Assembly (NCBI RefSeq): GCF_029227915.1
Contig: NC_079876.1
Coordinates: 18,908,001-18,972,000, forward strand
DNA length: 64,000 nt
Origin: Hydractinia symbiolongicarpus
Taxonomy: Eukaryota; Cnidaria; Hydrozoa; Anthoathecata; Hydractiniidae
Direction: 5' to 3'
Shown here: one piece after another, positions 1 to 49,180 of the stretch
How the letters are laid out: the number at the start of each line of letters is the position of its first letter
Position numbering within the stretch: position 1 is the first letter of the stretch
Made by a program: the position numbers and the translations under genes
The notes under the pieces: model-generated
The model's database searches: none
Told to the model about the DNA's origin: nothing
The model's input: the letters and a program-made list of their open reading frames with translations, nothing else

Positions 1-489
1 GTACCACATTTACAGAACGCCATTCAAGGAATAAAATAGCCGCAATAAATTTTTTGCTTATGTCACCACTTTTTCTGTGACTTTATCGGAAACTTGAAGT
101 TTGTGCAAAATACCACTACCTCCTGCTAGTTTAATAAATGAATTTTGACATTCTTTTTGAAGTTTCTGACATCCAAATAAAAGTTCCTAACATATTGTCC
201 AGTTTTTATATAATTTGTAAAAAAACCCGACAAAATGTGTGCCAAAGGTCGGTGACTCCCCTTTGTTAAAAACAAATGATAGGGGCAGTTTGAAACAGTG
301 GACTATATCTAGGGCTCTGAGAGGTACTAGGCCTAAGATTTGGATGCAGGTGTCTAATAGATAAATATAAAAACTCACAATGTAACATAACTGTAGAGCT
401 TAGCAAAAAGAGTTATTCCAAAAAACGGACAGGGGTAGTTTAAATGTAAATAATGCAATTTTCTCAAGCAAAACATGATTTGCCCATAG
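1..489 (+). other. Intron between NIDO 1 exons A and B (partial)
   Basis: No exon is visible. Parts (about 39-160, 312-440) resemble about 2753-2870 and 3040-3140 in the equivalent intron of NIDO 2, supporting duplication of the cassette with its intron. Confidence 0.6.
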
Positions 490-979
490 ATAAACAACGA
501 GGGTAGCATAAGATTAGATGTCTCCACAAAATTTGACAGCAGTACATTTTTGTCGACATATGGGATGGAATTCAACCTCACATTTGGTGGACATATATAC
601 TATAGTATCTCTCGCAGCCAGAGTATACTGAATAAGACCAACAAAGACGTTGAAGCAAGTGGAAATAAAAAATTTAACGCATCGCAAGCTATTATTGTCA
701 CGTACGTAAATGTATCAGCTCGTGATACACCTGAAGAAAAGAATACTTTCCAAACTGTGATAGCATCAGACGGTACAAAGACATATGCTATCCTTATATA
801 CAAAAAACTCGAATCTTGGAATGCATCTGTTAAATTTCGAGAACGTGACTGCATGTGGAAAAATTTTGTTAGATCAAGGGATGGTCGCTACAGGATTTCG
901 CATTCAAACGTTCATCATTTTTACGGTAAACATGTACATCTACTAACGACAAAGAGTTGTAGAGAAAAAAATGCAACAA
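490..979 (+). CDS. NIDO domain 1, exon B (first half outside window)
   Basis: The acceptor is TAG at 487-489 and the donor is GT at 980. The exon starts in phase 0 with INNEGSI, matching the ISTNGVI-type start of the other B exons, and ends in phase 1. It carries the NIDO core [11 protein letters not shown] followed by [10 protein letters not shown]. The usual YRE motif is changed to YYS. Its partner exon A is not found in bases 1-489, which resemble the middle of the equivalent intron of NIDO 2, so exon A should lie to the left of the window. Confidence 0.85.
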
Positions 980-3900
980 GTAAGTTATTCATTCAAATCT
1001 GCTTGGATCAGAAGGTAAGACTCTGACATAAAATCACACTCCATTTCAAATAAATATTTATCGGAAATTGGGTAGAGTGGGGAATGATTGTTCGCAACCA
1101 ATGATTTTTCACGACTATTTTTTAGCCAATGGACAATAATACCCCTCAACAATGTGTGTCCAAGGAAAAGCGTTAATTTTGCTTGAATAAAAAAGAATGA
1201 ATCGACAGTCTATAATTACGACGAGTATTTCCCTTTAAGCTACCATATTTTGAGTCCCGTTGTTTGGGGTATGAGCTAAACAGATTTGCGCTTGGACTTG
1301 TGTTATAAGAAGAAGGCACAATAAAAAATTGATCAATGAATAAGAATAAAAATAAATAATTTAAAAAAAGAAATGGAAACCAGCAAGAACCAAAGTTTCT
1401 GACTTGTGGACTGCAGATATGCGTGTATGTATATATGTAGGCAATATTTAATACAGTTTTCTTTTCTATCTAGACTCATGACTTTTTTAGTTCCTAATAT
1501 TGTATTAGGTACATATACAGTATAGTACATATATAGACTTCTTTTGTTTTATTTACATTAGTCTTATATCCCTACGGTGAGATGCACGGAGATGAGAAGT
1601 TCTCGTTAGACTTACCACTATCGGACGGGAGAAGACTTTTGTTAAGTACACCAATGCTACTCTTTTCAAAGCTAGCCAGCCGTTTATACGTAAGTAATGT
1701 ACAGAATTTTGTCAAAGAACAAATAAACGTCTAAAAAGCAAATGATTAGATTTCTAACTTTTACTTCTGGTTCTTGAAATGTTATTTGATTTTTCACAGT
1801 CCAACAGAAACGCTTTATACTCAGCATATTTCATTAAGAAGTCTGTTGTTACTGTTTAAAGCATTTTCTTTCAGGAACAAAAATGTGTATTCTTTTCGAA
1901 TCAAAGATTTAGTTGAATTTTTCTAATGTTACGCCATATTTATGAAAAACTGTTTTGTAAGCAACAGCCGGCTTAAAGAAAAGGCGAACTGCGCTGCAGC
2001 ACGGCTTTTGAATAAAAGTTCAAGATGCCACTATTGATTTCGAAGACCTATCATGATAAGAAAACAATCCTAAACAAAGTTTAAGAATGTCTTAATATTA
2101 TAAAAATTTGGTGATTTTCATATAAAACTTCCCAGAACGACAAGATAAACCAGTCTGTCATAAATACCTGTTTTGTTTACATCTTTGTTTACATTATGCG
2201 TCGATGCACAGATCGAAGGTAAGAGATAGATAAAAGAGTTTATATTGTATTAACTGATAGCCATTTTGTTTGGGCTTGTAGAAACCAAGACTATTTTCTA
2301 AAGATTTACTTGTGAAAAAGGTTGAACAAGCCATGTTTTGTTAAAGAAAGAAAACTTTAAATTTCATTGTATCAATTTTTTACATGTGCGAAAAAAAAAA
2401 CATTCGAATATCCATATAAAGGTTTTTTTAAACATTTTACCAACGTTGTGTGATAGACTTTTCTTCGTGCTTGTTGCTAATTGTTTCGATGAATATTGAC
2501 ATTAAAAACGCAGTGGATTTAAAATTATCAAAATCCCTTTTTTTTTTTTCTAGTAAAGTGATGCGAGGTTTGGGATTTACTTTAAGCTGATTTTTAAGTC
2601 TGTATGTAGCTAGCTATGTTACCAACTTTCTAGCAAAAGTTGTTCACATCAAAGGTTCAAAAACTCGCCATAGAGCTCAATAACTCTTCATAGACTTCTC
2701 CAAATTGATACAAATCTATCACACTTATAGTATATCACAAAAGAAACAAAATGACAGCAATAAATTTTTGCTTATGCTAGCACATTTTCTGTGATGTCAT
2801 TGAAAGCTTGACAGTTGTTCAAAATACCAGTACTTGCTAATAATTCAATTCTTTTTGTTCCAGAGCGAATTTCGCATTCTGTTTAAAGTTTTTTCACATA
2901 TCTTTTACAAAGTTCACATGAAAGATGCAAAAAAACAGTACAAAAATCCGTTGTTGTTTTTTAGTTTTAAGTATAATCTAAACAAATTAAAAAATATGAA
3001 TAATCACGTATCCAAAACATGCAGAATATCCAATATCAAACCTTTTGAAAGGTATGGGTCCTAAGCATTTGGCATGCAGGTGTCAAATAGATGCAACATA
3101 GCAAACAGCAGTTATTAAAAAAACCGTTAGGGGCAAATCGCCTCCCTTCTCCCCTAGTGTAAGAAAAAAGTGTGAATAAAAACAATGAAATGCAACATAG
3201 CAGCGATAAATGTTACCTACATTAACATCAATTTCACAAAACTTGTAAATTTTATTTTCATGGTTTTACATGACTCAAAAATTCTTCGTTGCTATGACAA
3301 CGAAAATATATTTTTTTATTTTGACAAATTGCTTCTAACAGGGTTATAAAATCACCAAACTTTAATGTTTAACCCATCATGGGCATAATAAGCAAGTGAC
3401 ACGGAACATTTTAAGCTTTTTCTTAATTCAGGAATGTTTATGTAGTTTTCAAAACAAAGTTTTCTGTAAAATCGGCACTACAATAAAACCAGTAGTAACG
3501 AGATGCAACTATTTTTTTCGTTTAAGGTAAGAGGAGGTGGTGAAATTTTAGTTGGAGACGACGGGGTTAACATAAACTTAGAAAAAACTAGTATCACATG
3601 GATAGCTGCCTATCGGAACCAATATTTCTTTAATCCAAGGAAGAGTGGAATATATTATCGTGAAACATTTGACAGCAGGATATTTTCTTTAGTGAATAAG
3701 GATTTAACACGTTACGGAATCAGAAACTTCACCTGCTTCCAAGCTGTCATTGTCACCTTTATGAACGCCTTAGGGCCATCGAGTAAATCAGATACCTTTC
3801 AAACTGTCATAGCCACAAATGGTAAAGAAACTTACGCCATTTTTAATTACAATCGCTTAGATAATCCTGATTGCATAGTCGCGGGATACGGCGAAATGTA

Positions 3901-6900
3901 TTGTTCTAAATACATAATGGATTGTAAAAATATGTCATATACTTCCAACGTCGGCATTCCTGGGCGACATGTTCTAAAGTTGACGTCAGATTGCCGTAAA
4001 GCAGGTAAGTCAAGTTAAACAGATATTTGAAATGAATGAATGGGACATGAAATAATGCAGTCGGGATTGTGGTAACAACTAAACGAGACGGAATAATTTT
4101 AATGTCTCAATTAACTGTGTCAAATATCTGTTTGATAATGTGTCTGTAATGTAGGCCCACACACACACACGCACAAAAACATGCAGGCATTTTATGTTTA
4201 GTTCTTTGTTGTTCTTATAGTCTGTCCTTTCCTGAGCACGGTAAACTTTTGTCTGTTATATTCAGTAGGTCTATCATAAGGATATTAAATATATTCCTTT
4301 GTTTACATAAATGCCGAATGGTATAAAAATAGAAGTAGCTATAATACCATCTGTAACGCATTTGTGGCAAATTTTGAGCGATTAATTTCGTCGGACAGAC
4401 CAAAAGTGCAGTCCTGCGTTTGTTAATTGCAAAATTATGGATAATTACCGGGAAAATAATTTGATCAAGTTAATTATTTTTTAATTTTCTCTAAAACAAA
4501 TAAACAAGCAATGGGTAACCGTAGATAACAGGCTAAGCTCTGGTGTTGTCCTTAAGAATTTTTCTTTCGCCCTTACCAACAAATCTTGTGCAAAATGCCA
4601 TGTGAGAAAGTTACTACGCGTAAAAATTACTACGACTAACTTATGAAATAAATCTTTGTTTAGCCTTGTATCCATATGGCATGCAAGTAAATGATTCAGT
4701 CATGCAACGTGGAGATGACCAAGGGGAAAAAATGCAGCTGAAAAGTCCTGTTCGTTTTCTAGCAGGACCGCCTACCCACAGCTTATACGTAAATAATTTA
4801 CGAAGTTATGTCTTCATATTAAATGGGGCAGTAATTTAAGTCTTTGCAGATCTTGTTCCCTAATTCATTTTCTATGTAACAAAATTAAGCGAGTTTGCAC
4901 ACAATAATATCAGTTTTAGAGAATCATTCTTCGACATTATAATTGGTTGATATTTTCTGAAACTTATCATTTTAGATATGAACAGCATATTTTTGACATT
5001 TGATAGAAAGAAATGTGATGAAAATTTAAAATCCTCGTTCAAATTTTGATGGATTTCACAAAACGTTCATTAAAGCAAAGTGTATATTGCTTTTATTGTA
5101 TTTATAGATCAGTAGCAATGGTTTCATTACATCCGAACACCCTGGCGATATGAAAAAGATAACATTGCCATCTCCATATATGATACTGGCACCATACAAC
5201 TTGGATTTTGACACAACAAAGGGTGGAAATATATTTTATAGGGAAAGTTATGAACCAGAAGTGCTTAATCAAGCCACAGTAGACATTCGGAAGCGCCTCA
5301 ATTCAGAATCATTTGTCGCCAAACAAGCAGCTGTTATCACTTACGAAAACGTTCCTCTACGAAGTAACATTTCGTTACTTCATACGTTTCAAGTGATTTT
5401 AGTTCGAGATCCATACTACACTTACGCTATACTCAATTATGTTCGACTCGACGCAAACGGAGCAATGTGCGGATATTCTATAAGATCCTGCGCATGTGAA
5501 AGTTTCGAATATTTTCCTGACAGCAAAAAATTAGCACAATCCTCAAATGTTGATATTGAAGGAAAGAGTATTTACACAATTTCTTCATACTCCTACTGCG
5601 CTGGACTCCCAGGTAAATGAAAATTAAAAATTTGTTTACTTTTGGCCAGCATAAATAGACTAGATATTTTGTTTATTTATTGAATTCATAGAGTGATATT
5701 ATCTCTATATCTCATAAAATACATACGATTTTTTTTTTATCATTTAGAATTGTTTTCGTGGGGTTATCCAGCTAGCGATTATCTTATAGACACTTACGAC
5801 ATAAATGCAAAGTATCAAACACTTAAACGGCCAATGCTGTTGTTTTCAAAACCTGAACGCCTGCTTGTTGTAAGTAATTCATTATGACAAGTTAATAACC
5901 GCAGACACTGAAAGATATTAAAAAATTAAAAATACATTAGAAAAAAATGAGTTTTTTCTTGTACTTTAGGTTTCTCAAATCGGGATATTTGTAGACAAAT
6001 ATGTGCCGTTGAGTGACATATTAGATGGAAAAATTGATACAACAAGCATATATCCGTATGCTAGGAAGTACTACTATACCACAGAAAAACTTGGTCGAGG
6101 TGACTTCAACGCTATATACGTACGAGAAACATTTAATATCGCTTTTTTAAATCTAACGAGTATGCACGTCCGTATCTATTCAAAGGATCAATTCGTTGCA
6201 ACACACGCCTTTGTGGTATCATATATACATCTGTCGATGAGAAGCAGTTCTAGAACCCATGGTGATACGTTCCAAGTAGTTTTGCTTAGTAATGGCACAC
6301 AAACGTATGCAATTTTAACATATCAACATCTACACTATCGAGCGTCTGTTGTTGGGTTTTACGAGAAATACTGCTTCTCTAAAGTTTTTGCAAATAAATC
6401 TTACAGCCGAGATCTGCAAAGAACTTCCAACATTGGAATTCCAGGCAGGCACGTGTTCTTACTTACAACTAACTGTCCGGTTCCTGGTAAGTTTTATTCT
6501 TATTGTTTTGTTGTTGTTGACAGGCTGGATAAAAGTCTAGAAATACTTGAATTGTTGTGTTGGTAAGAGCTACTTAAATAGTATAACCCTATCTATAATT
6601 ATACACCTACTATACACTTACATGCGTAGTTTAAATAAGAAGCGTTTACATTGCTCTCTACAGTACAGAACAATCCCCGTTAGCATAAAATACCCCATTG
6701 TGGGAGTTTAAATTTTTCAAATAACTTGAAATCCTAAGTCTTACGTCCATTGTGCACTTTAAGATCAAATTGCGTAAACGTAGCAAAAAATATCCTATAA
6801 AATTATCTTGGATACGAATTTCGATATTCACAGCCTTGCCTCAATATATTTTGTGCGACATTTTAGTTTTCTTACATGTCTGTAACAAATCTGAAATGTT

Positions 6901-9900
6901 GTTGTGTGGGCAGGAACGTTCTTTTAAGTTCAAATTTTGTAGGATTTCTTTTGTTTTAAGAAAAACAAAACAAAGTCTTTGAAACGATGAAGCCTATATC
7001 GGCACAGAAAACCTTCTTGAAAATAATAACAAGTTCGCCCGAATTCAGCAAAATTTCGGATAAATTAAAAAAATGAAAACAATGTTAAAACTTGTATTTG
7101 GGGTAGCCAATAAAATTCAAAATTTAAGTCTAATTAAAAAAAATTATTCATTGTCAAAAGTGTAAACCGGTCGTGACAAACCTTTAAGTTTAAGAGCATG
7201 TTTTTCTCCACAAAAAAGGCAAGAATTGTTTTAATTAAGTCGAATTTTGTCCTAATTTAATAAAATATGGAAACATCTTTATTTAAGAACTTTACCCATT
7301 TGGCGATGGAGTTCATGACACAGAATTACCGAGAGGTGACGAAATGCAACAAATATTCAATTTATCTCGCCCAATGCTCTTGTTTGGAACAGATGTTTCA
7401 AGCATCTTCGTAAGTTCAATAATTGATTTATAGATAATTTATGATCAGATGAAAAGTGCTAAGGTTCTTTATCAAAAATATAAATATACAAAACAATTTA
7501 TTCACGGTTTTAACCTTTTCTGCTGGTGGTAATTTTGATTGATACATACACTGCGTACGCTAGTGATCATGATGTTTATTATGAACCAAAACATTTAGAA
7601 AGACAAAATTATGGATACAATCTTGTTATTTTAAACTCACATTTTAAAAAGAAATTAATTTTACCCTATTAACTGCCAAGATATACCCATATTTCGTAGT
7701 CTAAAATGCTAGTTTAGTATTTGAATGTGAATGCAGCTCAACAGTTTTTGCTTTATTTCTAGATATACACCAATGGATATATAGCAAAATCTGCAGATAT
7801 ATCACTTAGTCATATTACAATTCCGTCATCACATCATTTTATTGCAGCATATGCAATGGACCTGGACACAAGCAAAAAAGGGAAAATACTATACCGCGAA
7901 GAATTTAACGTCACTTTATTAGACAAAGTCAGCAAACAGGTTTGCAAGTATTCAAAAGACTCCTTTCACGCAAATCACCTTGTAATTGTAACGTATGCAG
8001 ATGTTCCGAGACGTTACAACGATACTTCAACACATACCTTCCAGATAATCTTAGCCTCAAATGGGCATGTGACATACTGTATGTTTATTTATAAACACTT
8101 GAGTAATGGCGGTGCTTTTAGTGGATTCGCAGAAGGTCGTTGCAGAGCGAAATGGCTGACAAGCCGAGAAAGTAGCAACAAACTTATTACAAAATCTAAC
8201 ATCGGAATCATTGGACAAAGGGTTTATAAAGTTACATCGCCGTATTGTCGAGATGGTAGGACGGGTAAGGCTTGATTGAACGAAGTAATATGCTTTGTCC
8301 TTTAGGCGTATTTTCGTCGTTGGATTTTACCTTCCCTACGTTTTCTTTTGGTTGAAATTAAACCTAACCATAACGATGAATGGCTTGATTAAGAAGTACA
8401 CCTTGTTTCTTATACAAAAAAACAAATGAGTGTTATTATACATTTACTCTAAGATGGATTACTTCTCAAAGCTTACGTTCATTCTAACGCTCTCAAAATT
8501 TTTCCGTGATTGTGCTTTAACTACATGGAGAACAAAAGAATTTACCTTTCGTGGATACCAGTCTCGCCAATGATTGTTTATAAAACCTTTTGCGTGTATA
8601 AATTTCCAAACTTAAAAACGTTATCAGAATTTTTGGATAAAAACGTTTTCCTCAAAAAAACTTTCACAGAACACTCACACGTTTATAGGGTTTATATTAC
8701 GATTTTGGGGACAATGGTTTTTATTTATATGAACCAAATTGCCCTTTTTCACTTTAACACAGAAATTCATTAATTATTCTTTTGTTTTATTGTATTCTCG
8801 CTGCCGATATGATGTTGTAAATAGCTTTTTTGCCTGTAGCTAAAATCCGCAAAAAGAGCGAATAATTAGGTCTGCGAAAATTAAATTTAAATACACCATC
8901 ATGGCTTATCAAAATTTTATATTTTTCTTTTTTATATTTAGAGTTGTATCCATATGGGTATGAAAACGAGGACTTTATAATACCAGTCTCTATGACTTCT
9001 TTTATTCCACATAGTTTAGTGTTAACTAAACCTATGCTGTTATTTTCAAGTAAAGCGTGGGAGGTCGGTGTAAGTATGAATGATTTTGCTTCTTTATGAA
9101 AAATAGACAAATTTTGTGATCAAAAGGGTCGCAAATTAATTGCCCCGCTAAGTAATTTCATTATTCAATAGCAAACGAGAGATAAGAATGTACAAAATCT
9201 ATGGCTTCTTTTATGGGCTAACACCTGGTGTACACAATTGTTATTCGCTTTTTTCTGTCTATTTATATGCTTTAGCTTCAATGTTGACAACAGTAACAAA
9301 AATTTTATGTCTTTCATGTCTTTCTTACTGCATGAAGAAGAAAAACTGACGGGTGTTCTTTTAATTGACTTCAAGTTCGTCGGCTGACAAAGCAAATATG
9401 AATTCTCTTTAGATAGGAACGCATGGCTATGTTATTATGACCATAAATCACATTCCCAAAAATGAAAAACTACCATCTTATGTAACACATATTGAAATCT
9501 ATCGTATGCGCTATTATCCCGGAAATGTCTACTGTAGGGAAGTACTCAAGGAAAAAGACTTAAACCTAATCACCAATGATATTCGATTATACTCAAAAGA
9601 TAACTTCACTGCTACACAAGCTCTTCTCATCACGTATCTTAAGATGCGCGAGTTTCGAACTTCAAGGTACAATACATTTCAAGTGGCAATTGCATCTGAC
9701 GGAAATTTGACATATGCAGTGCTAAACTATATTCGTCTTGAGAGTAAAAATGCTAGAGTTCAATACCATGAACCCTATTGCACATCATCTACACTAGTGG
9801 CTCCTGAAGAAAGCCAAAAGCTTTTTTCGAGCACTAATACCAACAGACCAGGCCAACACGTCATAAAACTGACCAGCAAATGCCGAAAAGCAGGTAAGCA

Positions 9901-15900: not shown

Positions 15901-18900
15901 ACGGCATCTCTCATGACTTATCTGTTACGGAGCACTTATCAAACAATTCTGTAGGGCAGTTTCAAGAAATAACAGAGAAATGGATACGTTTTGAAATATC
16001 ATGAAGATGATAGCAAAAACTTTTGAAACCTAAAAAACTTTGTTTTCGTATATTCGTAAAAGTTAAGAAAGGATTAAGTAGCATTTAAAACCAAACACTT
16101 AGTATTTTAAACTCTAAACAACAAATTTTTAGACCTATGCCCTTTGTTAGATTTCTGATATAGACACGTCCTCATTAATGCAATAAAGACTGGTTTGTCT
16201 ATCTATACCGTGAAATATTACCCAAGGTCAAAAGTATTGACCGAACTTGCAAGAGGGTAATATTCCTCGGAACAGATAGATAGAACAGTTTATATTGTAT
16301 TTATTAACTGATAGCTATTTTGTTTTGGTTTGTAGAAACCAGGATTATTTTCTAAAGACTTAGTTCAAAAAAGGTTCTAAAAACCAGGTTTTGATAAGGA
16401 AAGAAAGCGTCCAAGTTCAATTCCATTGTATGAATTTTTCAAATACATTTGCAAAAAGAAAAAAACCATTAGAATATCCACATATAGAATTTTCTTAAAC
16501 GTTTTCGGTGGATTTTTGAGTTTTCTAGCAACCATTTTAATTGCTATGAGGTTAAAAGTTATATCACGATTAAAGCCTGTAGAAAGGAAATCAAAAAAGA
16601 AAACAACAAACAAAACATGATAAACTAAATTCAAAACAAATCAAAAGTTTTAATAGCAAGTAACCCTTTAATCCCGTTGAATGTTTAAAAAAGAAAAAGA
16701 AACGTGATGCAAATAACCATTCTATGTCTTTAACAATAGCCGTATTCCGTCTGTCTGTCTTTCCGCGAAAGCTGCGTCCTGTTACGGCAACACGAAATAT
16801 GCGATATATAAAGGACGGGCAAACCTGTGGATTTTTCTACGGGTTAACGGCTAGTGTCTATAATAATACCCGTATTCCGTCTGTATGTCTGTTCAAAAGG
16901 GTTACCGATATTCCTTTGATCTTTCAGCGATTTTTAGAAACCAGGGGGTTGTTTAATCGCAAATCTTATTATTGATTATAATAAATTCGAAAAATTAATT
17001 TATTTCTTTAATTAATTTAATTACTTTAATTTATTACCATAAGTAAGAAAAATAATTAAGTGAACAAAATGAATGCATTATTTTAATACGCTATTTAAAA
17101 AATAATTACCCGCGTGATTTCAATCGCCGATTTCGCTTAGGAGCCACAGAAAAAATGTTAGAAAATAAAATAAGCTGACCAGATGCATAATTAGTTAACA
17201 TAGATAAACAAAAGGTTGTCCATATCTAAGTCATTCTTCTCTACTGATAACTTTTTTGTTTAATTTAAACCCAAAAAGGCAATCAAACCTCTTGAATAGT
17301 TTGTGTTTATTTTTAAACAAAATTAGTATCGAATGTGTTTCGAGAATTCGACCACATCAATATGTAACTTGCCTTCCATCAATCTTTTTGTTTTCTTCAA
17401 AAAAAGGGCCTTATTTAAAAATATTTCTGGGGGCATTTAATGGGGCAATCAATGACTTATTAACCCTAAATGCGAGTCTACACGAAAATATATAGCACCT
17501 CTGTCTCGCAAGGACCTCACTGTGTTCAGTCCATACAACATGACCGTGGTCTATATTTTTCCGTATAGGCCGGCTAAGCGAATATTAATTTTTATAATAA
17601 ATCGCCCATTACATGCTGTAATTGTTTATTTGGCTTTTACAGATTAGTACGAACGGCCTAATATCTGTTCAAAATGGTATAACATTCAACATCAGTCTTC
17701 CATATCATGAAACAGTGATTGCACCGTATCATATGAATTTCGATACACTAAAAGGAGGTTCAATATTCTATCGAGAAACTAAAGAAAGAAACATCCTGTC
17801 ATTGATAAACAAAGATATCAAAAGAACTGGCTTGGAATTTGAATGTACACGAGTCATAATTGTAACTTACATTGACGTTGCTCATCATGACATACCAACG
17901 CAGAAACATACATTTCAAGTTGCCATCGTTACTAATGAAATTGACACATTCAGTATTTTCAATTATATTAGACTTGATCGAACTTACGCTGTGACTGGTT
18001 TCTCTGGACAACATTGCTACTGGATGACGTTTAATCGCTACACAGAATGGACACCCACTCTTAGTTATTACTTAGAGGATAGATCGAACATTGGAGTTAA
18101 AGGAAAATTTATATTCTCTATGAGCTCTTATATGTGTAACGATGAAGGCAATATAAATGGTAAGTATCGTGTACAATGTTACCTGCAAGGCATATGATTA
18201 GGAAAAATAAGGCAGCATGCAGTTTTCCTATAAGAAAGAAATTTGTAGAATAGCAAAGGAAAGGTACATTAATACATTTTACCTGTAGATCGATGGTTAT
18301 CAGATGCACCATATGATGTCAACGTTGCAACAATGACCTACACTGATGTTGGTATAAAATGGAGACACTTGGATAATATGTCAGATGCATACTTGATGGA
18401 ACATCCAAAAGATTTTGTCATTATCATAAACGCTGCAGAAATGTGGCATTCTTCAAAATATGTTTATAGATCCAAGTTCAGCATCCTTGGTCCTCTGGAA
18501 CAAAACATTACATATCAAGTTAACATATACACAAAAAGACGTGGTCTTTATTTTATGCCAGGAAAACCATCAATCATACATGTTGCGACTGTTCCGTTAG
18601 GTAACTTTGTCTATTATTTGGCGTTCGAGCTGTTGATAATTGACCATAAATTTCAAGATAATTATATTTGCAGACTGAAGATAAAAAGAAATGCGAAAAT
18701 AAATCCAATAATTTTCTGGAATCTAGAAAGTTATTTGTTTCTAGTCAGCGTTTTTAATAAGCTAACATTACTATCAGTAGCATTAGTAGTGTCATTCTAA
18801 TATTCTAGTTTTTAAAATATGTTAAAGCGGCGCCTACAAATAATTTCTGCAATCTCTCTTATTTTATTTAACAGAAATAAAAATTTTAAATCAAACATTA

Positions 18901-21900
18901 ATACAGGGTGAAGCTATAGCACTGGAACAAATAAGTGCAACTGAAATAATAATTTGGTTTTAGAATCTGTCCATAATTTAACTATAAAACAGACCATGTC
19001 AGAGAGAGCGATTGCGTATTGGAAAGTACCAGAGCACCTACTGTTAGATACGGTCATTGGAAAATTGATGATTGTTCATAAATACACACGAAATATGGAA
19101 ATGATAGAGGATGTTAATGTAACAAATATATGTCAAGAGCAATTCGAATTTTCTGGATTTGTGGGTTCTACGCATATTATAGAAGTGGTACCTATTATTG
19201 ATGACCGGTTGGGACCAGTCGCTAATTCTTCGCATACATTCACTAGTGGTAGGTATTTTTCTTCTTTCGATAGAATGTAGTGTGGTGCTAATACATTCGG
19301 TTTCGGCCGTTGCGTTTCAGTTTCGACTCCCCTATCCGCGCCCTTTAAATATAGTATTTTCAGCGCATTTGGTGGCGACTACTGACTACAAATAAGCTCA
19401 TGTGGCAGACAATTAAGTTAGAGCAATATTATACATATTACTAGTTGTAATTAAACATAGTTACAGTCTGAGGAGGGGAAGAACCAACCGTTAGAGTGGA
19501 GTCCCAATGGACGTTGATACTTCCCGTCACTTATTTAACTACTTACTAAGTTACTAATAAATTTTCTGCTATTTGGGGTCCTTTTCGGCTAAACACATTA
19601 TCTTTCTTATGATTGGTTTTCCTAGACCCTCTGCCCAATCACGATAACGATATCACAACTGAGCTGATCATCATTATCGCAATTGCAACTACACTAATTG
19701 GAATAATAAGCTTTGCATTTGTTTGGTATAAAAGAAGCCACAGACGGAAGTTTAATGCATACTTAATGCCAGCAAGTAATAAAGTGGTAAAGTTTGTATA
19801 TTTCTTTGTATTCTGAATGATTTAATTTGTTTGCAGATTTTTTTAACATGGTTTGTCGGTTGGGAAAGCAATTGTTAAAAGAGCATAAAACATTCCAGAC
19901 AAAATAAGGACAGCTTTCCATAACACAAAAGAAATACAAAAGTGAATCACTAAAATCAAATTTTCGTTTTAGTTCAGATAAAAAACGATTCAAATTTTTT
20001 TTAGGAACTAACAAAAGTTTCAATTCCAACATATCAAAATAGAGCATTTGTTTTTTCTTCCTTGGTGACTTGGGAATAACCTAAAAATTAGTTAACATTC
20101 TTTATTAGAACAGAAAATATCAGAAATACATAAGAGAGTGTATGCTTTAAATAAAATGCACTCAACCAATGAACTCTATAATACAAAACCCTCGTTCCAG
20201 GACACAGGAGATGCAAGATCCGTCTGAACTACTAAAGAAGTGGTATAGAAAAAAAACATTTTGGCAGCCACAAAATAAATTTAAGCGTACTATATTCATT
20301 ACACCTCTCTAAGAACTACTACAACTTCAGCTGTAATCTGGATAAAAGGTCCATAAAATGCGTAAAAATATTTCTCATACTTTATCGGGCAACAGCGAAG
20401 ATTTTTTTCAGAGTTAGAAGAACTCAGTTCAACTAACAGTTTTATTCGACAAAAGGTTTTTTCCATAAAGTATGTAATAAAATACACACTTTATTTATAT
20501 GACTAAAAACTATTACAGTGATGCCGTGTTGTTTATACTTTTGATACAAGTGGTGTTTTTGTTTAATCCGAAGTTGAGTTCTTTAAAAACAAAGCATTTC
20601 ATCATGAGTAATTTCTTCATTTCCTTCTTTTTCTTCGCCCTTTGGAGTATTTTGTATTTGACGATAAGAAATTTCATGAATTTTTAAATTTTCGTACCGT
20701 GCACAAATTGCTCTTACTGCGTTTTGGCAATTTTGTCAATATGACAAAAAAAAACTCGGGCTAAATAATCCTAAATAGCCTTCGAAACCATGTTACTACG
20801 ATACAAACTTTCTAGTCTTCTGTGTGATTTTAAGAAAAAAACGACACAGGTAAAAGAAATGATGTGAGTAGGAATATGTTGTGTAAAGAATAATTTAGAG
20901 TGTCCAAAATTTTCTTTGAGAATTTAGGGAATAAAGCAGTCACATAGAAATATGCAATTTAAATTTATATTTATCAAAGATCGACCCCGGGAAAACAATC
21001 CTGGAGCAATGTCACAATCTCAGCTACGATTTAAAATTCGAATTTCCAAGAAAGAAATTACACTTAGTTCGAACTATTGGTGAGGGTGCCTTTGGTCAAG
21101 TGTGGATGGCGACTGCTGAAGGGATGAATGCGTTTAAACCAAGGGAGACAAGAAAATCGAGAAATATACTTAAACATTTCAAAGGAGGTGGTCTCAAGAA
21201 GTCAGTGGTGGCTATAAAATGCTTAAAAGGTTAGTTATCTTGGACGTATTAATTTCTTTTATGTAAACTTCAAAATTAAAATTCGCGTATTAACAAATTC
21301 TATCCGCGCGTTCGTTTAAACGTATGCGCGAAAATTAGTATAAGGTATAGTTATAATGATCATTCTTGCGTTCTACTTTGGAAAAGTGATTTTACTTCGT
21401 GTGTAAAAATGAAAAGTCGTTTATAAAATTTACGATAAATAAGTTTTTCGAGAATTCTTTTCATGTTTTTTTATTTTAATTTTCTCTTATATAATTTGTT
21501 CGTATAATAAGTATAATAAATGTACAACAAATAGGAAGACTTAAACATTTTACATAAGAATAATTACAGATATTTCTTGTATAGCAGAAACATGCTTTTA
21601 AACATAGATGCTACGTTTAATTAGAACATTTTGCAGATGGAAAAATTTCAAAAATAAATACACAAATCTTTTTTCCAAATATTAACCGAAGTAATGTTTA
21701 TGTTTAAAGACGAGTCTATTATAACACTAAAAATGTTTACATGATGCAGTAAAGCTTGTATATTAAAAACAAGAGGAAACGCTCACCCATCCAGACTCTG
21801 GAATGACATCGACGTAAATGCTCTATGATATTAAGACTAGTTTTAATCACATACAATACCTAATTAATTAATACAGTAACTGATGCAAAATTACCGTTTA

Positions 21901-24900
21901 TATCTACACTAAAATGTGACATTCAAAAGAAATTGATAGAAAACATTGGAGAATCTAGCAGTTGTTAGAGTTGGATTTTTATAGAAAAGTAGAAAACGCT
22001 TTTTGTTTTTAATAGGTAATGCAGCCGAAAGCGACTACAAGGATCTAGCTAATGAAATAAAATTGCTTATCCATCTTGGTGAACATCCAAATATTGTTAA
22101 TCTACTCGGTGCTTGTACGAGAGGAGAAAGCCTGCTTGCAATTTTGGAATATTGCGGAAAGGGGTGCCTATTGGAATATCTTCGATTGAACAGAGATCAA
22201 TTCGAACCCACCTGGGTAAGACATGATGATGAAGATTTAAATCTGTATGATTTGACATGGATTGCTGTTCAAGTTGCTCATGGGATGGATTTTCTTGAAC
22301 AGAAAAAGGTGGTTCTTTCAAATTTCCTATGTTACAGTATAATTAATTAATTAATTAATTAATTAATTAATTAATTAATTAATTAATTAATTAATTAATT
22401 AATTAATTAATTAATTAATTAATTAATTAATTAATTAATTAATTAATTAATTAATTAATTCTTGTGTAGAAAACAAACCTTAGTTAAGTTAAGTCGTCCA
22501 AACTATTTTTATTTAGTGCGTTCACCGCGACTTAGCCGCAAGAAATGTTCTCTTAACAGAGCACACGAAGGTAAAAATATCAGATTTTGGACTAGCTAGG
22601 GATACTGACAATAAAAGTTTTTACCTGAAAGAAAGTGATGGTTTGCTTCCAGTCAAATGGATGGCACCAGAAGCAATTGTTGATCGAATGTATACTTCAA
22701 AAAGTGACAGGTATTGGCGTTTTTTTTAATTTATTTGTGACGGACAGAACTATTACGTCATAATCATCCGTTGAACGTCTGATGTTCAATAATATGGAAA
22801 CTGTAAAAAGCAACAGCATACTGTTTTGCCATAACCCAACCCTCAGACTAAATATAAAAATTAGTTCCATTAACCAGCTACCCTCTACTTTATGCTGTTA
22901 CATTATACTTTGCATTATAAACACAAAACAAGTTAATATCCATCACAAAGGCTGCCGGTATGTTGTAATAGAGAATACTGATGAAGACAAATCCCTTGTA
23001 AAATCTTCACAATATTTCATTGCAGTTTTGCATCAAAGCATTAGATGCATGATGTGAGCTTAGTTAGGGGTTGTATATATGGGAATTAGGAAAAAGGATA
23101 TGTTTTAGGAAAAAGGTATATGTTTCACCATAATTTTAGAATGAGATTTCGGGTAGCTAACAAACTAATTTTTCGTTAATATGACAAAATTATTTACCCT
23201 CTTCTCGAGATTTAGGGGCCGTATGATCGAGATTTCAGTAACAGGTAATTAATTTTTCATATAGAAAAACGATAAATTTGTATCACAATAAATCATAGAC
23301 GGTTATTACATAGTACTTTCCTACTTTTTACTCCGGGAATGGTTTTCTCGGCCATGAAACTAGCCCAGGAAATGTTCTTCATATAAACATCCCCACTAAA
23401 ATGTTATTTTTAATAATTTAAAGAGAGTGGGAAATTCATTACCCTCATTTTAATTTTCTATTTTCTCCTTAAGCTAAAAAACATTTTCGTCATTGACAAT
23501 TCTAAAACTTTTCATAAAGTGACTTTTTTTGCGAAAGTGATTATCAGTGACATTTCATCTCAACATTCAATTTACTCCAGGTCATATTTCTGATAAATTT
23601 GTTTCATAAATTTGTCACCATTATTATAGCGTTTTCTCTTTATTACGGGACAAAATTAAACAAAATGATCCACCCTCGTTTATACATACCATCGCTAGTT
23701 TTATTCCACTGGATTTTCTCAGCCCCTGTTTTTTACACCTTAGGTCCTTGCGTTTTTGGATTATGGCTTACATCAATTTGTCTTTTCTTTTCCCACTTTT
23801 CTGAAGTTATCTTAAAACACTAAAAAAGACTCGTCAATATGACAACAACTTCACAAGCTACTGACATAATTAAAAGTTAACCCCATTACTATATCTCTTG
23901 TTTCTTTGCAGTTGGTCATTTGGAATTGTGATGTGGGAAATCTATTCACTTGGTTCTGTGCCATACACTTTTTTAAAAAACTCAAGTGTAATGACATACC
24001 TCAAGTCTGGTCAGCGAATGGAAAGTCCGAAACATTGTCCTGCAGCAGTGCGCGAGTTGATGTTACAGTGTTGGTCCATCTTGCCAGATATGAGAATGTC
24101 CTTCGCAGAGTTGAGAAACAAACTGGATCAGATTCTTTTGAATAATGTATGTTTTTTTATACTTTCTCTATACTTAAAGTTAAGCCTTTTTCAAAATAGT
24201 GCAGTTGCATTTTTAATATTAACGACCTTACTAAACATGTGCAACGAAGAAATAGCAATGTATTTTAATGCGCATATAGAAATACTACTGAGAAAAGCTC
24301 GCAGAAAAAGCAAAGAATTTTGTGTGTGTGTGTGTGTGTTTAACGACTTGTTCACAGTTTCTTCTTCAGATTCATATTCATTATCAGTTTTGAATTTCTT
24401 TTAACAATTTTGACAGTAGTCATATCTGTTTTAATTTTATTTAACGTCATCACGTTCGTTAATTATTAGTAATCAATTTTTCGCACTTTTTTATATGACG
24501 TGCTTTCATAAAAAGCTATTGACAATGTCGCTGCAGGTACTGTCCGTTCTTGTTTCGCAACGACAGTTGTATTTAGTAACCCTCAATACAACTAAGTATG
24601 AAATAAAAGCGGAGTTATTAACAATTTTGTTTCTTATTGACTGTTGAATCATCAAGTTATATTTTACAGGAATAGAATCTATTTTTTTTATCTCTTTTGA
24701 AGCTTTTGGAATTTTGAATATTGTGAAAATACTTGCATTTAGGCCTACATGTTGCTCCCTTTGAGACAAAGAAGTCAAAAAAAAATATCCGTGAAAATAT
24801 TTAAATACACTGCACGTCATAGAGGCGATGTACAATACTGCACTTATTTGTTGAATGTTGTCAGTCTAGGAAATACAGCTGGCTTCAATTTGAATTAAGA

Positions 24901-26008
24901 CACGTGCTACTAAACCTGAGACATTGGGCACCAATATCTCCTTATGACAGCAACCTTTTTTCACAAAATAATTTTCCCCAAAACCTGATTTTGTAAACCA
25001 TCCATTCATAGCTAAACTGGGGACTATGTAGAATATGTAACATTTGTTTCTTAAAAAAAAATCAACTGTTACCTTTCTTCTTTTTCTGAAGTACGGCTGC
25101 TGCAATGAAATTACGCTATAATACGGCGATAAAAACCTCGAAACACACATTCAGTTCAATGTTTAATATTTGTATATAATAATGACGCCTGCAAGCATAC
25201 AATCTTTCTTGCGATTATATTTAAGGAAACAAGTGCATTGGGTGGCGTATCTATGGCAAGAATATTGGATTTTGAACAAGCTGAAACGAAACAGGAAGTG
25301 GAGTATGAACCAAAGGCGAGAAATAAGGAACAACAGTAAGTACAAACGCTCTTTGCTTTCCTCAAAAAACGTGACCACCGATCTTCAGCTTAAGGGCGAG
25401 ACTGTAAGTTCAAATTTCTTCTGTATAGTAAGTAAGTAACCAACGGGAAGTTTTAACGTCCTTGGAGATTCCATCCTAACGGTTGGTTCTTCCTCCCATC
25501 CGACTGTAACTATGTTACATTGCCGCCAGAGATATGGCATTGCTCTAACTTGCTGGCCTGCCACACAAGCCGGTTAGCGGTCAGTAGATGGCTAGCCTAC
25601 TAAGCTTCCAGATTCTTTAAAATGACTTTTAAATTCTAAGAGTACAGCAAATTGCACCGAAGAAGGCAAAATTAATACTTATATTGATCATTAAACAACC
25701 ATGTTTAGTCTAAATTTCGTGTTTGATATTTTTCTTTTTCACTTTTTTTGCGGGTGTGTAAATGTAATTAAACCTGGTCGTAAAAGAACTGGCATTGTGT
25801 GTTGTTTCCAAAACTTGAGACATTTGTTACTTTATTATTTAGAGATGAGACGACATCTGAAGTATCGTCTACAAAAGATTCAACTAGCGACATTATTGAT
25901 GCTGGTTCTTCCGAAGATTATCTCTTCTTAACCGTCGACACAAACGCACATAAAGGGATATATAACAACCTGAGGGAGATGCACAGTAGGATTGGAGTTG
26001 GAAGATGA
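490..26008 (+). CDS. Multi-NIDO receptor tyrosine kinase, 5' incomplete
   Basis: Spliced gene for a single-pass receptor tyrosine kinase. Exons: 490-979, 1562-1689, 3527-4004, 4664-4788, 5108-5612, 5748-5869, 5970-6486, 7288-7409, 7763-8264, 8942-9069, 9413-9893, 10204-10319, 12187-12685, 13235-13356, 13527-14025, 15611-15732, 17643-18159, 18289-18600, 18964-19248, 19626-19786, 20980-21229, 22016-22308, 22517-22710, 23912-24146, 25226-25335, 25843-26008. All junctions are GT-AG and the phases agree, giving 7,479 nt (2,492 residues plus stop). Order: nine NIDO domains, two FN3-like modules, transmembrane helix, tyrosine kinase, tail. The signal peptide and the first half of NIDO 1 lie upstream of the window. 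The ligand is unknown. NIDO domains are known from nidogen, tectorin and mucin-type extracellular proteins, so a matrix or adhesion ligand is a guess. The exon model is hand-made and needs transcript support. Confidence 0.88.
1562..4004 (+). CDS. NIDO domain 2 (exons A and B)
   Basis: Exon A is 1562-1689 ([12 protein letters not shown] at its start) and exon B is 3527-4004. The A-B intron is 1.8 kb. Exon B has [31 protein letters not shown] and the terminal [18 protein letters not shown]. It starts with VRGGGEI instead of the usual VSTNG-like turn. Total length and phases (1 to 1) match the other cassettes. Confidence 0.87.
1690..3526 (+). other. Large intron between NIDO 2 exons A and B
   Basis: No gene. 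It contains the two blocks shared with bases 1-489, and a block at about 2235-2450 shared with about 16275-16505 in the A-B intron of NIDO 9. The open frame at 2834-3064 has no recognisable product. Confidence 0.6.
4664..5612 (+). CDS. NIDO domain 3 (exons A and B)
   Basis: Exon A is 4664-4788 (ALYPYGM) and exon B is 5108-5612. Exon B opens with ISSNGFI and contains [29 protein letters not shown] and [11 protein letters not shown]. It ends in phase 1 before a gtaaat donor. The A-B intron is 319 bp and holds nothing recognisable. Confidence 0.9.
5748..6486 (+). CDS. NIDO domain 4 (exons A and B)
   Basis: Exon A is 5748-5869 and exon B is 5970-6486, with a 100-bp intron, the shortest in the array. 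Exon A reads ELFSWGY instead of the usual ELYPYGY, so the aromatic-proline motif has diverged. Exon B has [31 protein letters not shown] and [17 protein letters not shown]. Confidence 0.9.
7288..8264 (+). CDS. NIDO domain 5 (exons A and B)
   Basis: Exon A is 7288-7409 ([11 protein letters not shown]) and exon B is 7763-8264. Exon B opens IYTNGYI and contains [29 protein letters not shown] and [15 protein letters not shown]. Phases are 1 to 1. The preceding 801-bp intron (6487-7287) holds a short open frame with no recognisable product. Confidence 0.9.
8942..9893 (+). CDS. NIDO domain 6 (exons A and B)
   Basis: Exon A is 8942-9069 ([11 protein letters not shown]) and exon B is 9413-9893. Exon B begins IGTHGYV and contains [29 protein letters not shown] and a closing [15 protein letters not shown]. 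The FxG-containing loop before YCRE is shorter than in its neighbours. The open frame on the opposite strand across exon A is a shadow. Confidence 0.88.
10204..12685 (+). CDS. NIDO domain 7 (exons A and B)
   Basis: Exon A is 10204-10319 ([11 protein letters not shown], at 116 nt the shortest A exon) and exon B is 12187-12685. Exon B begins INVNGVV and contains [28 protein letters not shown] and a closing [18 protein letters not shown]. The 1.9-kb A-B intron carries reverse-oriented Helitron ends. Both splice junctions are intact. Confidence 0.88.
10460..10886 (-). mobile_element. Helitron, non-autonomous, reverse orientation
   Basis: Read on the minus strand, it starts TCTATATATAATAATACGC near 10886. 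It ends with a GTGGATTCTTCCAC hairpin, a short spacer and CTAG at 10460-10463, followed by T. A 5' TC, a 3' hairpin close to CTRR and insertion between A and T are the Helitron hallmarks. No coding capacity. It lies in the A-B intron of NIDO 7. Confidence 0.75.
11960..12095 (-). mobile_element. Helitron 5'-end fragment
   Basis: On the minus strand it begins TCTCTTTAATAATAGCCG and continues with the CGTATTCCGTCTGTCTGTG stretch shared by the other copies in the window. The 3' end is unclear. A CTAG at 10887, just beside the neighbouring element, could be the 3' end of a longer copy. Confidence 0.6.
13235..14025 (+). CDS. NIDO domain 8 (exons A and B)
   Basis: Exon A is 13235-13356 ([11 protein letters not shown]) and exon B is 13527-14025. 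Exon B begins ISTNGVV and contains [40 protein letters not shown] and a closing [12 protein letters not shown]. Its donor is GTATCT rather than GTAAGT. A Helitron begins at base +4 of the intron and supplies that unusual donor tail. Confidence 0.88.
14029..14780 (+). mobile_element. Helitron copy 1 of a head-to-tail pair
   Basis: Starts TCTATATAATAATACGCC and ends with the perfect hairpin GTGGATTTCTCCAC (14751-14764), a 12-nt spacer and CTAG at 14777-14780. It is 752 bp, non-coding and rich in TGACGTCA-like motifs. It is inserted between A and T, three bases into the intron after NIDO 8 exon B. Confidence 0.85.
14781..15500 (+). mobile_element. Helitron copy 2 of a head-to-tail pair
   Basis: Begins exactly where copy 1 ends (CTAG then TCTATATAATAATACGCC). 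It repeats the same internal blocks, such as CAATTTGGG followed by TTTCCCAAACCTGGGT. It ends with a hairpin carrying one mismatch (GGGGATTTTTCCAC) and CTAG at 15497-15500, followed by T. It is a diverged relative of copy 1. Confidence 0.85.
15611..18159 (+). CDS. NIDO domain 9 (exons A and B)
   Basis: Exon A is 15611-15732 ([11 protein letters not shown]) and exon B is 17643-18159. Exon B begins ISTNGLI and contains [28 protein letters not shown] and [15 protein letters not shown]. The usual TYAIFNY appears as [11 protein letters not shown]. The 1.9-kb A-B intron shares a stretch with the A-B intron of NIDO 2. This is the last NIDO before the FN3-like modules. Confidence 0.88.
15733..17642 (+). 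other. Large intron between NIDO 9 exons A and B
   Basis: Contains a block at about 16275-16505 shared with the A-B intron of NIDO 2, the miniature Helitron at 16727-16854 and a further Helitron 5' end at 16857. The open frames at 16377-16634 and 17256-17495 have no recognisable product. Confidence 0.6.
16727..16854 (+). mobile_element. Miniature Helitron, 128 bp
   Basis: Starts TCTTTAACAATAGCCGTATT and ends with a GTGGATTTTTCTAC hairpin, spacer and CTAG. It lies in the A-B intron of NIDO 9. Two bases later a second 5' end (TCTATAATAATACCCG) begins at 16857; its 3' end is not found. Confidence 0.75.
18289..18600 (+). CDS. Fibronectin III-like module 1
   Basis: Phase 1-1 exon between acceptor TGTAG and donor GTAACT. 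It has the FN3 pattern: proline-led start ([11 protein letters not shown]), strand-B tryptophan (VGIKWRHL), [20 protein letters not shown] resembling the GL-x-NTxYxVxV stretch, and a closing VATVPL. I identified it by pattern only; another immunoglobulin-like fold is possible. Confidence 0.7.
18875..18963 (+). pseudogene. Possible decayed FN3 half-exon
   Basis: Preceded by a good acceptor (TCTCTCTTATTTTATTTAAC then AG). In the phase set by the previous exon it reads open for 29 codons, ending SATEIIIWF, which resembles an FN3 strand A/B region. It meets TAG inside the acceptor of the next exon. It may be a disabled remnant or chance. Confidence 0.35.
18964..19248 (+). CDS. Fibronectin III-like module 2
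   Basis: Phase 1-1 exon after a TTTTAG acceptor. [19 protein letters not shown] gives the strand A/B pattern, and the module ends near SSHTFTSG. It is shorter and more divergent than module 1. Directly upstream, 18875-18963 reads open in the same phase and may be a lost or alternative FN3 half-exon. Confidence 0.6.
19365..19560 (+). repeat. Dispersed repeat, copy 1 (SINE/MITE-like)
   Basis: The stretch including AAGTTAGAGCAAT, AACATAGTTACAGTC and GAAGAACCAACCGTTAG matches the reverse complement of 25425-25620. It is about 195 bp, in the FN3-transmembrane intron, and no coding content is visible. Confidence 0.65.
19626..19786 (+). CDS. Transmembrane exon of the receptor kinase
   Basis: Encodes a short acidic stalk, then a hydrophobic helix [20 protein letters not shown] ending in [10 protein letters not shown], a clear stop-transfer signal placing the kinase inside the cell. 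The juxtamembrane part has one tyrosine (NAYLMP). The exon ends in phase 0 at a GTAAAG donor, matching the phase-0 start of the first kinase exon. Confidence 0.9.
19787..20979 (+). other. Transmembrane-kinase intron
   Basis: 1.2 kb, phase 0. The open frame at 20499-20687 is hydrophobic and low in complexity. I see no further exon, and the flanking phases join directly. Confidence 0.6.
20980..24146 (+). CDS. Tyrosine kinase domain, four exons
   Basis: Exons 20980-21229, 22016-22308, 22517-22710, 23912-24146. Motifs in order: glycine loop GEGAFGQV, catalytic lysine VAIK, helix-C glutamate ANEIKLL, catalytic loop [24 protein letters not shown], and the helix-F block. HRDLAARN and the [10 protein letters not shown] form place it among tyrosine rather than serine/threonine kinases, and the overall look is FGFR/VEGFR/RET-like. 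The kinase insert is short. Oddities: SDSWSFG replaces SDVWSFG, the activation loop has FY where FGFRs have YY, and the final motif is RMSF rather than RPSF. All catalytic residues are present, so I expect an active enzyme. Confidence 0.95.
22341..22460 (+). repeat. (AATT)30 microsatellite
   Basis: 120 uninterrupted bases of AATT, making up more than half of the 208-bp kinase intron 22309-22516. Confidence 0.97.
22711..23911 (+). other. Kinase intron 3, no gene seen
   Basis: 1.2 kb between the activation-segment exon (phase 2) and the SWSFG exon. The open frames at 22782-23057 and 23599-23823 are not recognisable. The next introns (24147-25225; 25336-25842 apart from the repeat at 25425-25620) are likewise empty, except for a short (TG)n near 24320. 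Confidence 0.5.
25226..26008 (+). CDS. Receptor kinase C-terminal tail, two exons and stop
   Basis: Exons 25226-25335 (phase 0 to 2) and 25843-26008, with TGA at 26006-26008. The tail is acidic and serine/threonine-rich. It has three tyrosine contexts: VEYEPK, EDYLFL and GIYNNL. YNNL fits the Y-x-N consensus for the Grb2 SH2 domain, which suggests Ras-MAPK coupling (inference). The phases close the frame exactly. Confidence 0.82.
25425..25620 (-). repeat. Dispersed repeat, copy 2 (SINE/MITE-like)
   Basis: Reverse-strand relative of 19365-19560, in the last intron of the receptor kinase. It shares CTAACGGTTGGTTCTTC and GACTGTAACTATGTTACA in inverted form. Class unknown; I cannot show a tRNA-like promoter. 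Confidence 0.65.
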
Positions 26009-45300: not shown

Positions 45301-45739
45301 ATGCTACATGGGTACAGCTATAATTTATTCTTTACTTAGGGAATCACTTTTAAAATCTCAAGGATTCTCAATGTCTTTGAGAATACCGTCATTTAAAAAA
45401 ATTTTAAATTCTCATCACAAGTCATCTCAAATCTGACTTTATAATTAAGTGGCAAACCTGTTACAGAGCATTTCTAAATACAAGTTTTTTGAACTCACAA
45501 TTAATTCTGCCAAAAGTTCTGGCTTGGAAGATGTATTTTTTCCGTGCTGTGTGTTTAGGAAAAATAGAATTGTAAAATTTTAGCCTTGTCATTGTTCTTA
45601 TTTTGTTTTTATTTTTAGCAATTCATAGGACAAGCCATTCTCAATCAAAATTTGAATCGAGTTAACATTTGCAAAACTTACCAAAAAATGCTAGGAATTT
45701 TAACTAAAATGGCATCAAAGAATCTGATTTACGGGGATG

Positions 45740-46335
45740 TAAACATCTTGTTATATTTGAACATACATAGAGCTCTCTATCTTGCAAATCTCGCACATAG
45801 CACGCTCTATCTTGCAAATCACACACTTAGAACGTTCTATCTAGGAAATCACACACTTGAGCGTTCTATCTTAGAAATCACACACTTAGAGCGTTCTATC
45901 TTGGAAATCACAAACTTAGAGCGTTCTATCTTGGAAATCACACACTTAGAGCGTTCTATCTTGGAAATTACACACTTAGAGCGTTCTATCTTGGAAATCA
46001 CACACTTAGAGCGTTCTATCTTGGAAATCACACGCTTAGAGCGTTCTATCTTGGAAATCACACACTTAGAACGTTCTATCTTGGAAATTACACACTTAGA
46101 CCGTTCTATCTTGGAAATCACACACTTAGAGCGTTCTATCTTGGAAATTACACACTTAGAACATTCTATGCTGCAAATCACACACTTAGAACATTCTATC
46201 TTGCAAATCCCACACTCAGATTTTCCTAAGTTGCAAATCATATATTTGGATCTTCCTAAGTTGCATATCACACACTTATATATTCCTTAGCTACAAATCA
46301 CGCACATATGACGATCTATCTTCAAATCAAACACA
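45740..46335 (+). repeat. Left inverted array of a 30-bp repeat
   Basis: About 18 units of 30 bp with the core TAGAGCGTTCTATCTTGGAA, varying toward the ends. A stop-free frame through it is a by-product of the period (10 codons), not a gene. The outer edge (AACATACATAG) recurs in inverted form at about 52880. Confidence 0.93.
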
Positions 46336-48038: not shown

Positions 48039-48347
48039 ACATTAGGGTGCGTGACTATCATCTGATAACGCACCTGCCCCACCACGAAACCGAACATGTG
48101 GAAACATGATGTCAACACGTACCCCTTTCTGACCTCAACCCGATTTGAGGTCAAATAATTAACTTGCAGCATCTGTGCCTATCAACAGTCTATAACAGGA
48201 AAACTAATCATACCAGAGAAAGATTTAAAGTTGCCTTTTTCGGAAGGAACTTTTCGAAGTGTTTTCTATGCCACTGGTATTAAAATATGTATGGAAAGTT
48301 TGTTATGCAGAAGAACAAAGACGGCCAGATAGTCCAATCATTAAATG

Positions 48348-48670
<323 letters not shown>

Positions 48671-49180
48671 GTAGGAAATCTTTTACAATTTTAACATGTA
48701 AAAGATGTCCTAAAGTATATAAGTTTATGTTTTGTTACTGTGTATGAAGATTTACCATATTCATTTAAGCCGTAAAAGCATGAATATGATTTGGTATACC
48801 ATCTGGTAATGTTTCTTTAAAGCAAAGACATATAGCTACTCCAAATCCCCACGAAAGTGTCTGCTTCCTTTTGAAATAGGGGAACCATGACATATGCAAA
48901 AATATCCCTGGATGAAGATCATAATTGTAATGTTTTAAACTTTGTAATTATTGTAAAGTAATGAACTGTAACCTTTTTTATATATATTCTGGAACGAGAC
49001 TCTTTTTGTACACCTGACGATAAAATGATCGAAACGTTGTTATAAATACTTGTTTTTTTTGACTCCATATACTTATATTTAAACTTACACGATGCTGCGT
49101 TAAGAATGAATATATATCTATCATGCAGTAAATTTATCCTGTGACCACTATAAAGGTAAAGAAGAGTCTCGTAGAAGGAA

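Follow-up and report, generated by a model that had tools for sequence, protein, structure and literature searches.

The window analysed here, a 64,000-nt stretch of contig C2 of Hydractinia symbiolongicarpus (C2:18,908,001-18,972,000; exon positions are counted within it), very probably holds the 3′ part of a single gene that encodes a single-pass, type-I receptor tyrosine kinase (RTK) whose ectodomain is a rod of NIDO domains, and which would belong to a lineage-expanded family, descend from a receptor that exchanged immunoglobulin (Ig) domains for NIDO domains and signal by ligand-driven pairing. We know of no named receptor kinase family with a NIDO array; the parts are of known kinds, and we can put no name to their combination.

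The gene model was rebuilt from open reading frames (ORFs), splice signals and exon phases. It occupies positions 490-26008 of the plus strand and consists of 26 exons separated by 25 GT-AG introns, with matching phases throughout and without an internal stop, as an earlier note on the same DNA had described for all 25 junctions. The open frame comprises 2,492 codons, closes with a stop codon at 26006-26008 and would be expected to be transcribed as one mRNA. It encodes nine NIDO domains, the modules F1 and F2, a transmembrane (TM) helix, and on the inner side a complete tyrosine kinase with a tail that carries tyrosines, distributed over the following exons:

490..979 (+): NIDO exon B0, the A exon of this domain lying upstream of the window (PF06119, E 8.3e-17; splice model)
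1562..1689 (+): NIDO exon A1, the LYPYG..GD half-domain, phase 1 to 0 (splice model, HMM)
3527..4004 (+): NIDO exon B1, phase 0 to 1 (PF06119, E 3.7e-13; splice model)
4664..4788 (+): NIDO exon A2 (splice model, HMM)
5108..5612 (+): NIDO exon B2 (PF06119, E 1.5e-22)
5748..5869 (+): NIDO exon A3 (splice model, HMM)
5970..6486 (+): NIDO exon B3 (PF06119, E 1.1e-14)
7288..7409 (+): NIDO exon A4 (splice model, HMM)
7763..8264 (+): NIDO exon B4 (PF06119, E 2.6e-23)
8942..9069 (+): NIDO exon A5 (splice model, HMM)
9413..9893 (+): NIDO exon B5 (PF06119, E 9.7e-13)
10204..10319 (+): NIDO exon A6 (splice model, HMM)
12187..12685 (+): NIDO exon B6 (PF06119, E 4.9e-21)
13235..13356 (+): NIDO exon A7 (splice model, HMM)
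13527..14025 (+): NIDO exon B7 (PF06119, E 2.8e-19; AlphaFold2 model)
15611..15732 (+): NIDO exon A8 (splice model, HMM)
17643..18159 (+): NIDO exon B8, the membrane-proximal NIDO (PF06119, E 1e-23)
18289..18600 (+): F1, fibronectin type III (FN3) module, phase 1-1 exon (PF00041 via paralogues; PDB profile)
18964..19248 (+): F2, a further module common to the family, on a phase 1-1 exon (paralogue comparison)
19626..19786 (+): single TM helix and inner stop-transfer residues (splice model; hydrophobic stretch in paralogues)
20980..21229 (+): K1, juxtamembrane region, P-loop GEGAFGQV and beta3 lysine VAIK (splice model, Pfam, kinase alignment)
22016..22308 (+): K2, alpha-C glutamate to alpha-E (Pfam, splice model)
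22517..22710 (+): K3, activation loop (splice model, kinase alignment)
23912..24146 (+): K4, C-lobe (splice model, Pfam)
25226..25335 (+): tail exon C1, cytoplasmic, with one tyrosine (EYEP) (splice model; 29 of 36 codons align with the inverted twin described below)
25843..26008 (+): tail exon C2, last coding exon, with tail tyrosines EDYLFL and GIYNNL and the stop at 26006 (splice model; 34 of 54 codons align with the twin)

Each NIDO domain is encoded by two exons, an A exon of 116-128 bases (phase 1 to 0, LYPYG..GD) and a B exon of 478-517 bases (phase 0 to 1). HMMs derived from these window exons placed nine B and eight A exons in strict alternation on the plus strand, and detected no further copy of either on either strand of the window below E 0.1. 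The earlier count of at least nine tandem NIDO domains is borne out by Pfam, in which all nine of these large ectodomain exons lie above the PF06119 cut-off (E 1e-23 to 9.7e-13) and the spliced protein contains NIDO stretches of five and four (E 1.6e-88 and 4.6e-77). The window edge cuts the gene, leaving the first NIDO without its A exon, and the array runs on upstream on the same strand with three more B exons (C2:18,900,595; 18,901,818; 18,904,722, the last a partial match) and two A exons, giving 12 NIDO domains in all. No convincing signal-peptide exon was found in the 8.7 kb 5′ of the first NIDO A exon, where three weak candidates were seen. An AlphaFold2 model of NIDO B7, with the nine B exons of the window aligned as input, reached a pLDDT of 87 and a pTM of 0.85 and had no clear match among solved structures; a phage search with one NIDO exon also gave no match. 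Within its residues 1-2,030, the window protein has 30 N-glycosylation sequons.

Two FN3-like modules had been proposed to follow the array, of which the first can be retained. PF00041 was matched by F1 of all five members tested (best E 7.4e-5), whereas the window copy reached only E 0.1, below the cut-off, and all eight matches listed in a PDB profile search with F1 were FN3 proteins (best E 0.08); the assignment of F1 to FN3 is thus supported through the paralogues rather than through the window copy. An FN3 identity for F2 was not supported. Pfam searches of the window-encoded ectodomain at E values up to 10 detected no Ig domain and no EGF, G2F or LDL-receptor-b module. The borders B8-F1, F1-F2 and F2-TM are all of phase 1. 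The single TM helix (19626-19786), assigned by its hydrophobicity, joins the ectodomain to a kinase that matches positions 1-258 of the 258 in PF07714 (E 7e-87), the connection to a complete tyrosine kinase that had been read from the letters alone.

Elsewhere in the window, a reverse transcriptase fragment (PF00078) lies at 59119-60000 and a ubiquitin carboxyl-terminal hydrolase exon (PF00443) at 62006-62356 on the minus strand. ORFs of 150 and 631 amino acids at 49622-51828 resemble mobile-element reverse transcriptase by eye and have no Pfam match, and 45619-46290 and 48284-48747 are occupied by a coding-like sequence repeated in tandem (ERSILEITHL) and an extended TA-rich repeat with YIYI frames. 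Within the gene, an AATT tandem run (22333-22468) fills most of the short K2-K3 intron, and the B7-A8 intron contains imperfect direct repeats at 14293-15256 (237 bases, 86%). Rfam and tRNA scans of the window returned no matches.

To place the gene among its relatives, searches were run over the 480,894,487-base genome (76 contigs). At least 125 matches to NIDO (150 of 158 candidates scored) and at least 137 to the window kinase (128 of 296 scored) were obtained, both totals being lower bounds because the candidates were only partly scored. Counted by eye, 18 kinase loci, the window gene and one partial match included, have a K2-exon match of 50% identity or more, and in 13 of them, again with the window gene, NIDO exons occur in the 15 kb 5′ of the kinase, in the same orientation. 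The layout was compared in 11 of these 13 (the window gene and ten others; C8:5.40M and C14:6.63M were left out), and in every one the NIDO exons, F2 and K1-K4 occur in one order on one strand. F1 is clear in five of the 11; in the other six its match is weak (E 0.0016 to 0.13) and falls after the last NIDO and before F2. The interval from F2 to K1 contains a hydrophobic stretch with basic residues behind it in the window gene, its twin and all nine others, the paralogue stretches having been picked by hydrophobicity without a chance control. Twelve NIDO B exons are present in each of four genes (the window gene, the twin, C2:17.94M and the C4 paralogue), and between one and five were seen at the other seven loci (one at C2:18.39M; two each at C14:14.59M and C2:24.95M), counts that may be low where a fetched stretch stops short of the 5′ end. 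Array length nevertheless probably varies between members, since the whole-genome NIDO search also lists few matches at the short-array loci, and a long array is evident, on these exon counts, in some but not all of the family.

The recurrence of this layout bears on whether the model wrongly joins two neighbouring genes, one for a secreted or membrane NIDO-array protein and one for a separate receptor kinase. Kinase-less NIDO arrays do exist in the genome, such as the 11 B exons on contig C10 considered below, and a scan of positions 1-19700 found four hydrophobic Met-starting stretches, one of them in the F1-F2 intron. Against such a division, the NIDO-F1-F2-TM-K1 to K4 order is kept on one strand in all 11 sequenced loci (with F1 weak in six), B8 and F1 are only 129 bases apart and in phase, and the inverted twin retains the whole exon set, all of which makes two genes extremely unlikely. 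The earlier note had dismissed a chance fusion of neighbouring ORFs. Against chance, positions 1-26100 contain 11 ORFs of 150 codons or longer on the plus strand, where 100 first-order Markov shuffles averaged 0.02. The exons have a GC content of 0.38 and the introns of 0.31. One NIDO-array RTK gene, as originally suggested, is the best reading, given the 13 loci of the same genome with NIDO exons followed by a kinase and the duplicate that keeps the exon set.

The catalytic motifs of the window kinase are intact. Of the 60 best PDB matches, among 812 at E 1e-30 or better, 59 are FGFR1-4, and the top match is a tandem EGFR construct with a score summed over its two copies. A BLAST comparison with human kinases ranked FGFR1 first (261 bits, 43.5%), followed by RET (233) and KDR (231). 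The kinase-domain tree that the earlier note had called for comprised 11 kinases of the family and, as its only other sequences, 10 human ones. The 11 family members form one clade (100/100), which is joined with KDR and KIT (93/93) and then with FGFR1 (81/88). The beta3 lysine, alpha-C glutamate, HRDLAARN and DFG are kept in ten of the 11 members. The exception is the C15 gene (C15:8,721,265-8,738,071, minus strand), which has DLG for DFG and HRDLAART for HRDLAARN; in this gene and in C2:18.39M, alanine replaces the third P-loop glycine. These substitutions suggest that some members may lack kinase activity, and the C15 receptor is possibly a weak or dead one. The activation-loop tyrosine is kept in the window kinase (SFYLKESDG) and absent from the C4 paralogue. 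The tail has three tyrosines (EYEP, DYLFL and IYNNL), of which we take DYLFL to resemble the PLC-gamma site of FGFR, and the YNN motif presumably fits the preference of the GRB2 SH2 domain.

One relative is an inverted twin at C2:18,776,102-18,814,769 on the minus strand, about 82 kb from the first NIDO exon of the window gene. It is a near-complete duplicate with 12 NIDO exons and a tail, and all 26 exons of the window gene align with it, the tail exons in part. In the twin, the acceptor AG coincides with the aligned position for 24 of 26 exons, and for F2 and TM an AG lies three bases upstream of the position checked; the donor GT is exactly aligned in 18 exons. Seven of the remaining eight have a GT in phase no more than 30 bases away, and the eighth, being the last exon, lacks a donor. 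That the twin is an uncollapsed haplotype is unlikely, given a pooled dS of 0.17-0.22 in NIDO, F and K exons and its inverted position on the same contig. The best hit falls at the same array position for all 12 window domains in the twin, for eight of 12 in C2:17.94M and for seven of 12 in the C4 paralogue, with the four proximal NIDO domains only 41-55% identical to the latter two. This correspondence of array positions between paralogues indicates, from sequence comparison, that the array is older than the split of these receptors. A recent tandem expansion was rejected as an explanation of the array, since its units are only 25-40% identical to each other and their positions are common to the paralogues.

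Selection was assessed on this one duplicate pair by the Nei-Gojobori method. The dN/dS ratio is 0.34 in the NIDO exons (1,812 codons), 0.16 in F1 and F2 and 0.23 in the kinase, and 0.54 and 0.55 in the tail and TM, where few codons are available (63 and 52). On these ratios, the exon set shared with the twin is under purifying selection. The same values bear on a reading in which the gene is unchanged but, through alternative ends, mainly yields a soluble NIDO decoy, the kinase form being minor. Soluble receptor forms are common among RTKs, and A[AT]TAAA occurs in 20 of the 25 introns, a motif that is frequent by chance in AT-rich DNA; however, purifying selection on the kinase exons is at least as strong as on the array (0.23 compared with 0.34), and a mainly soluble product is very unlikely.

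Constraint also differs along the array, with dN/dS at 0.41-0.57 in the distal exons B0, B1, B3, B4 and B5, and in the proximal exons at 0.28 in B6 and 0.13 in B7 and B8. This gradient, together with the length and repetitiveness of the rod, would suit an array that serves adhesion or spacing rather than ligand sensing, with an active kinase that signals upon clustering at cell contacts. B2, however, is distal and lies off the gradient at 0.18, and the array as a whole is constrained, which suggests specific contacts, so that a purely adhesive or spacing role seems the less likely one, though it is a real possibility.

The closest known receptors and NIDO proteins each share part of this layout. 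VEGFR, PDGFR and KIT (class III/V) and FGFR have kinases like that of the window gene by PDB matches and tree, and their ectodomains consist of Ig domains, whereas the window gene has 12 NIDO domains, one FN3 and a second module, and no Ig domain in the part encoded in the window. Set beside human sequences, its YD.KFEFPR motif resembles the juxtamembrane region of KIT and VEGFR, its beta2-beta3 loop is longer than those of FGFR1, KDR, KIT and RET, and its kinase insert is short relative to KDR and KIT. Nidogen, alpha-tectorin and MUC4 share PF06119 with it, but these and similar proteins have one NIDO accompanied by EGF, VWD or AMOP domains and are not known to carry a kinase.

Related kinases and NIDO arrays of other layouts are present in the same genome. 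The five kinase loci of the 18 that are NIDO-less all lie on contig C8 and are 50-55% identical to the window gene in the K2 exon. The Ig result below concerns one of them, at C8:26,775,384-26,782,500 (minus strand), which has a K2 exon 55% identical, a TM stretch and a juxtamembrane motif like those of the family. Its ectodomain is Ig rather than NIDO: all five pieces tested match Ig Pfam models at E<=0.01, four of them above the curated cut-off, and no NIDO exon occurs in about 5.5 kb upstream of the kinase. The other four kinases, at C8 5.467M, 6.230M, 26.791M and 26.936M, share 50-54% identity with that of the window and have no NIDO match listed in their vicinity. The NIDO-less relative with Ig domains suggests that the NIDO array probably replaced an Ig array, and the simplest account that agrees with the tree is that a VEGFR/FGFR-like Ig receptor probably swapped its ectodomain for a NIDO-FN3 array. 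As to direction and mechanism, phase-1 exon shuffling probably brought the NIDO array into the place of the Ig ectodomain, helped by the phase-1 borders on either side of F1 and F2, with gene duplication afterwards.

A possible donor type is represented at C10:15,008,066-15,028,740 (plus strand), where 11 NIDO B exons like those of the window form an array. A 30-kb stretch around it, which includes 12 kb on its 3′ side, contains no kinase exon. The last NIDO of the array and a Kazal domain lie in one open frame, and 2.2 kb beyond, in the same orientation, is a C-type lectin exon that may belong to a separate gene; an EGF-like exon, recognised by eye, also lies 3′ on that strand. Array positions are poorly matched, with the best hit at the same position for two of 12 window domains and for one of 11 in reverse. 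A kinase-less array of this type is a possible donor and also a possible partner of the receptors.

The long, sequon-rich rod, single helix and intact kinase lead us to expect signalling by ligand-driven pairing. The ectodomain would form a rod of 12 NIDO domains and more than 2,000 residues, followed by FN3 and a second small module, and the rod would bind an extracellular ligand, either a matrix component or another NIDO protein. The ligand would bring two receptors together, the paired kinases would phosphorylate each other, and the tail tyrosines in DYLFL and YNN would then recruit SH2 proteins. NIDO-rod receptors probably sense matrix or NIDO-type ligands.

The gene joins a domain of the matrix and mucin type to signalling of the growth-factor type, and because related kinases in one genome carry either Ig or NIDO ectodomains, the swap of a receptor ectodomain could be traced exon by exon. 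More speculatively, and on balance unlikely, the lineage-specific radiation of at least 13 NIDO receptor kinases, with arrays of up to 12 domains whose distal members, B2 excepted, evolve faster than the proximal ones in the one duplicate pair measured, would constitute a diversified recognition system, for matrix identity or for self/non-self contact, wired to FGFR/VEGFR-type signalling, with secreted arrays like that on contig C10 as possible partners. With at least 13 members, the family provides a set of receptors for which to look for ligands.
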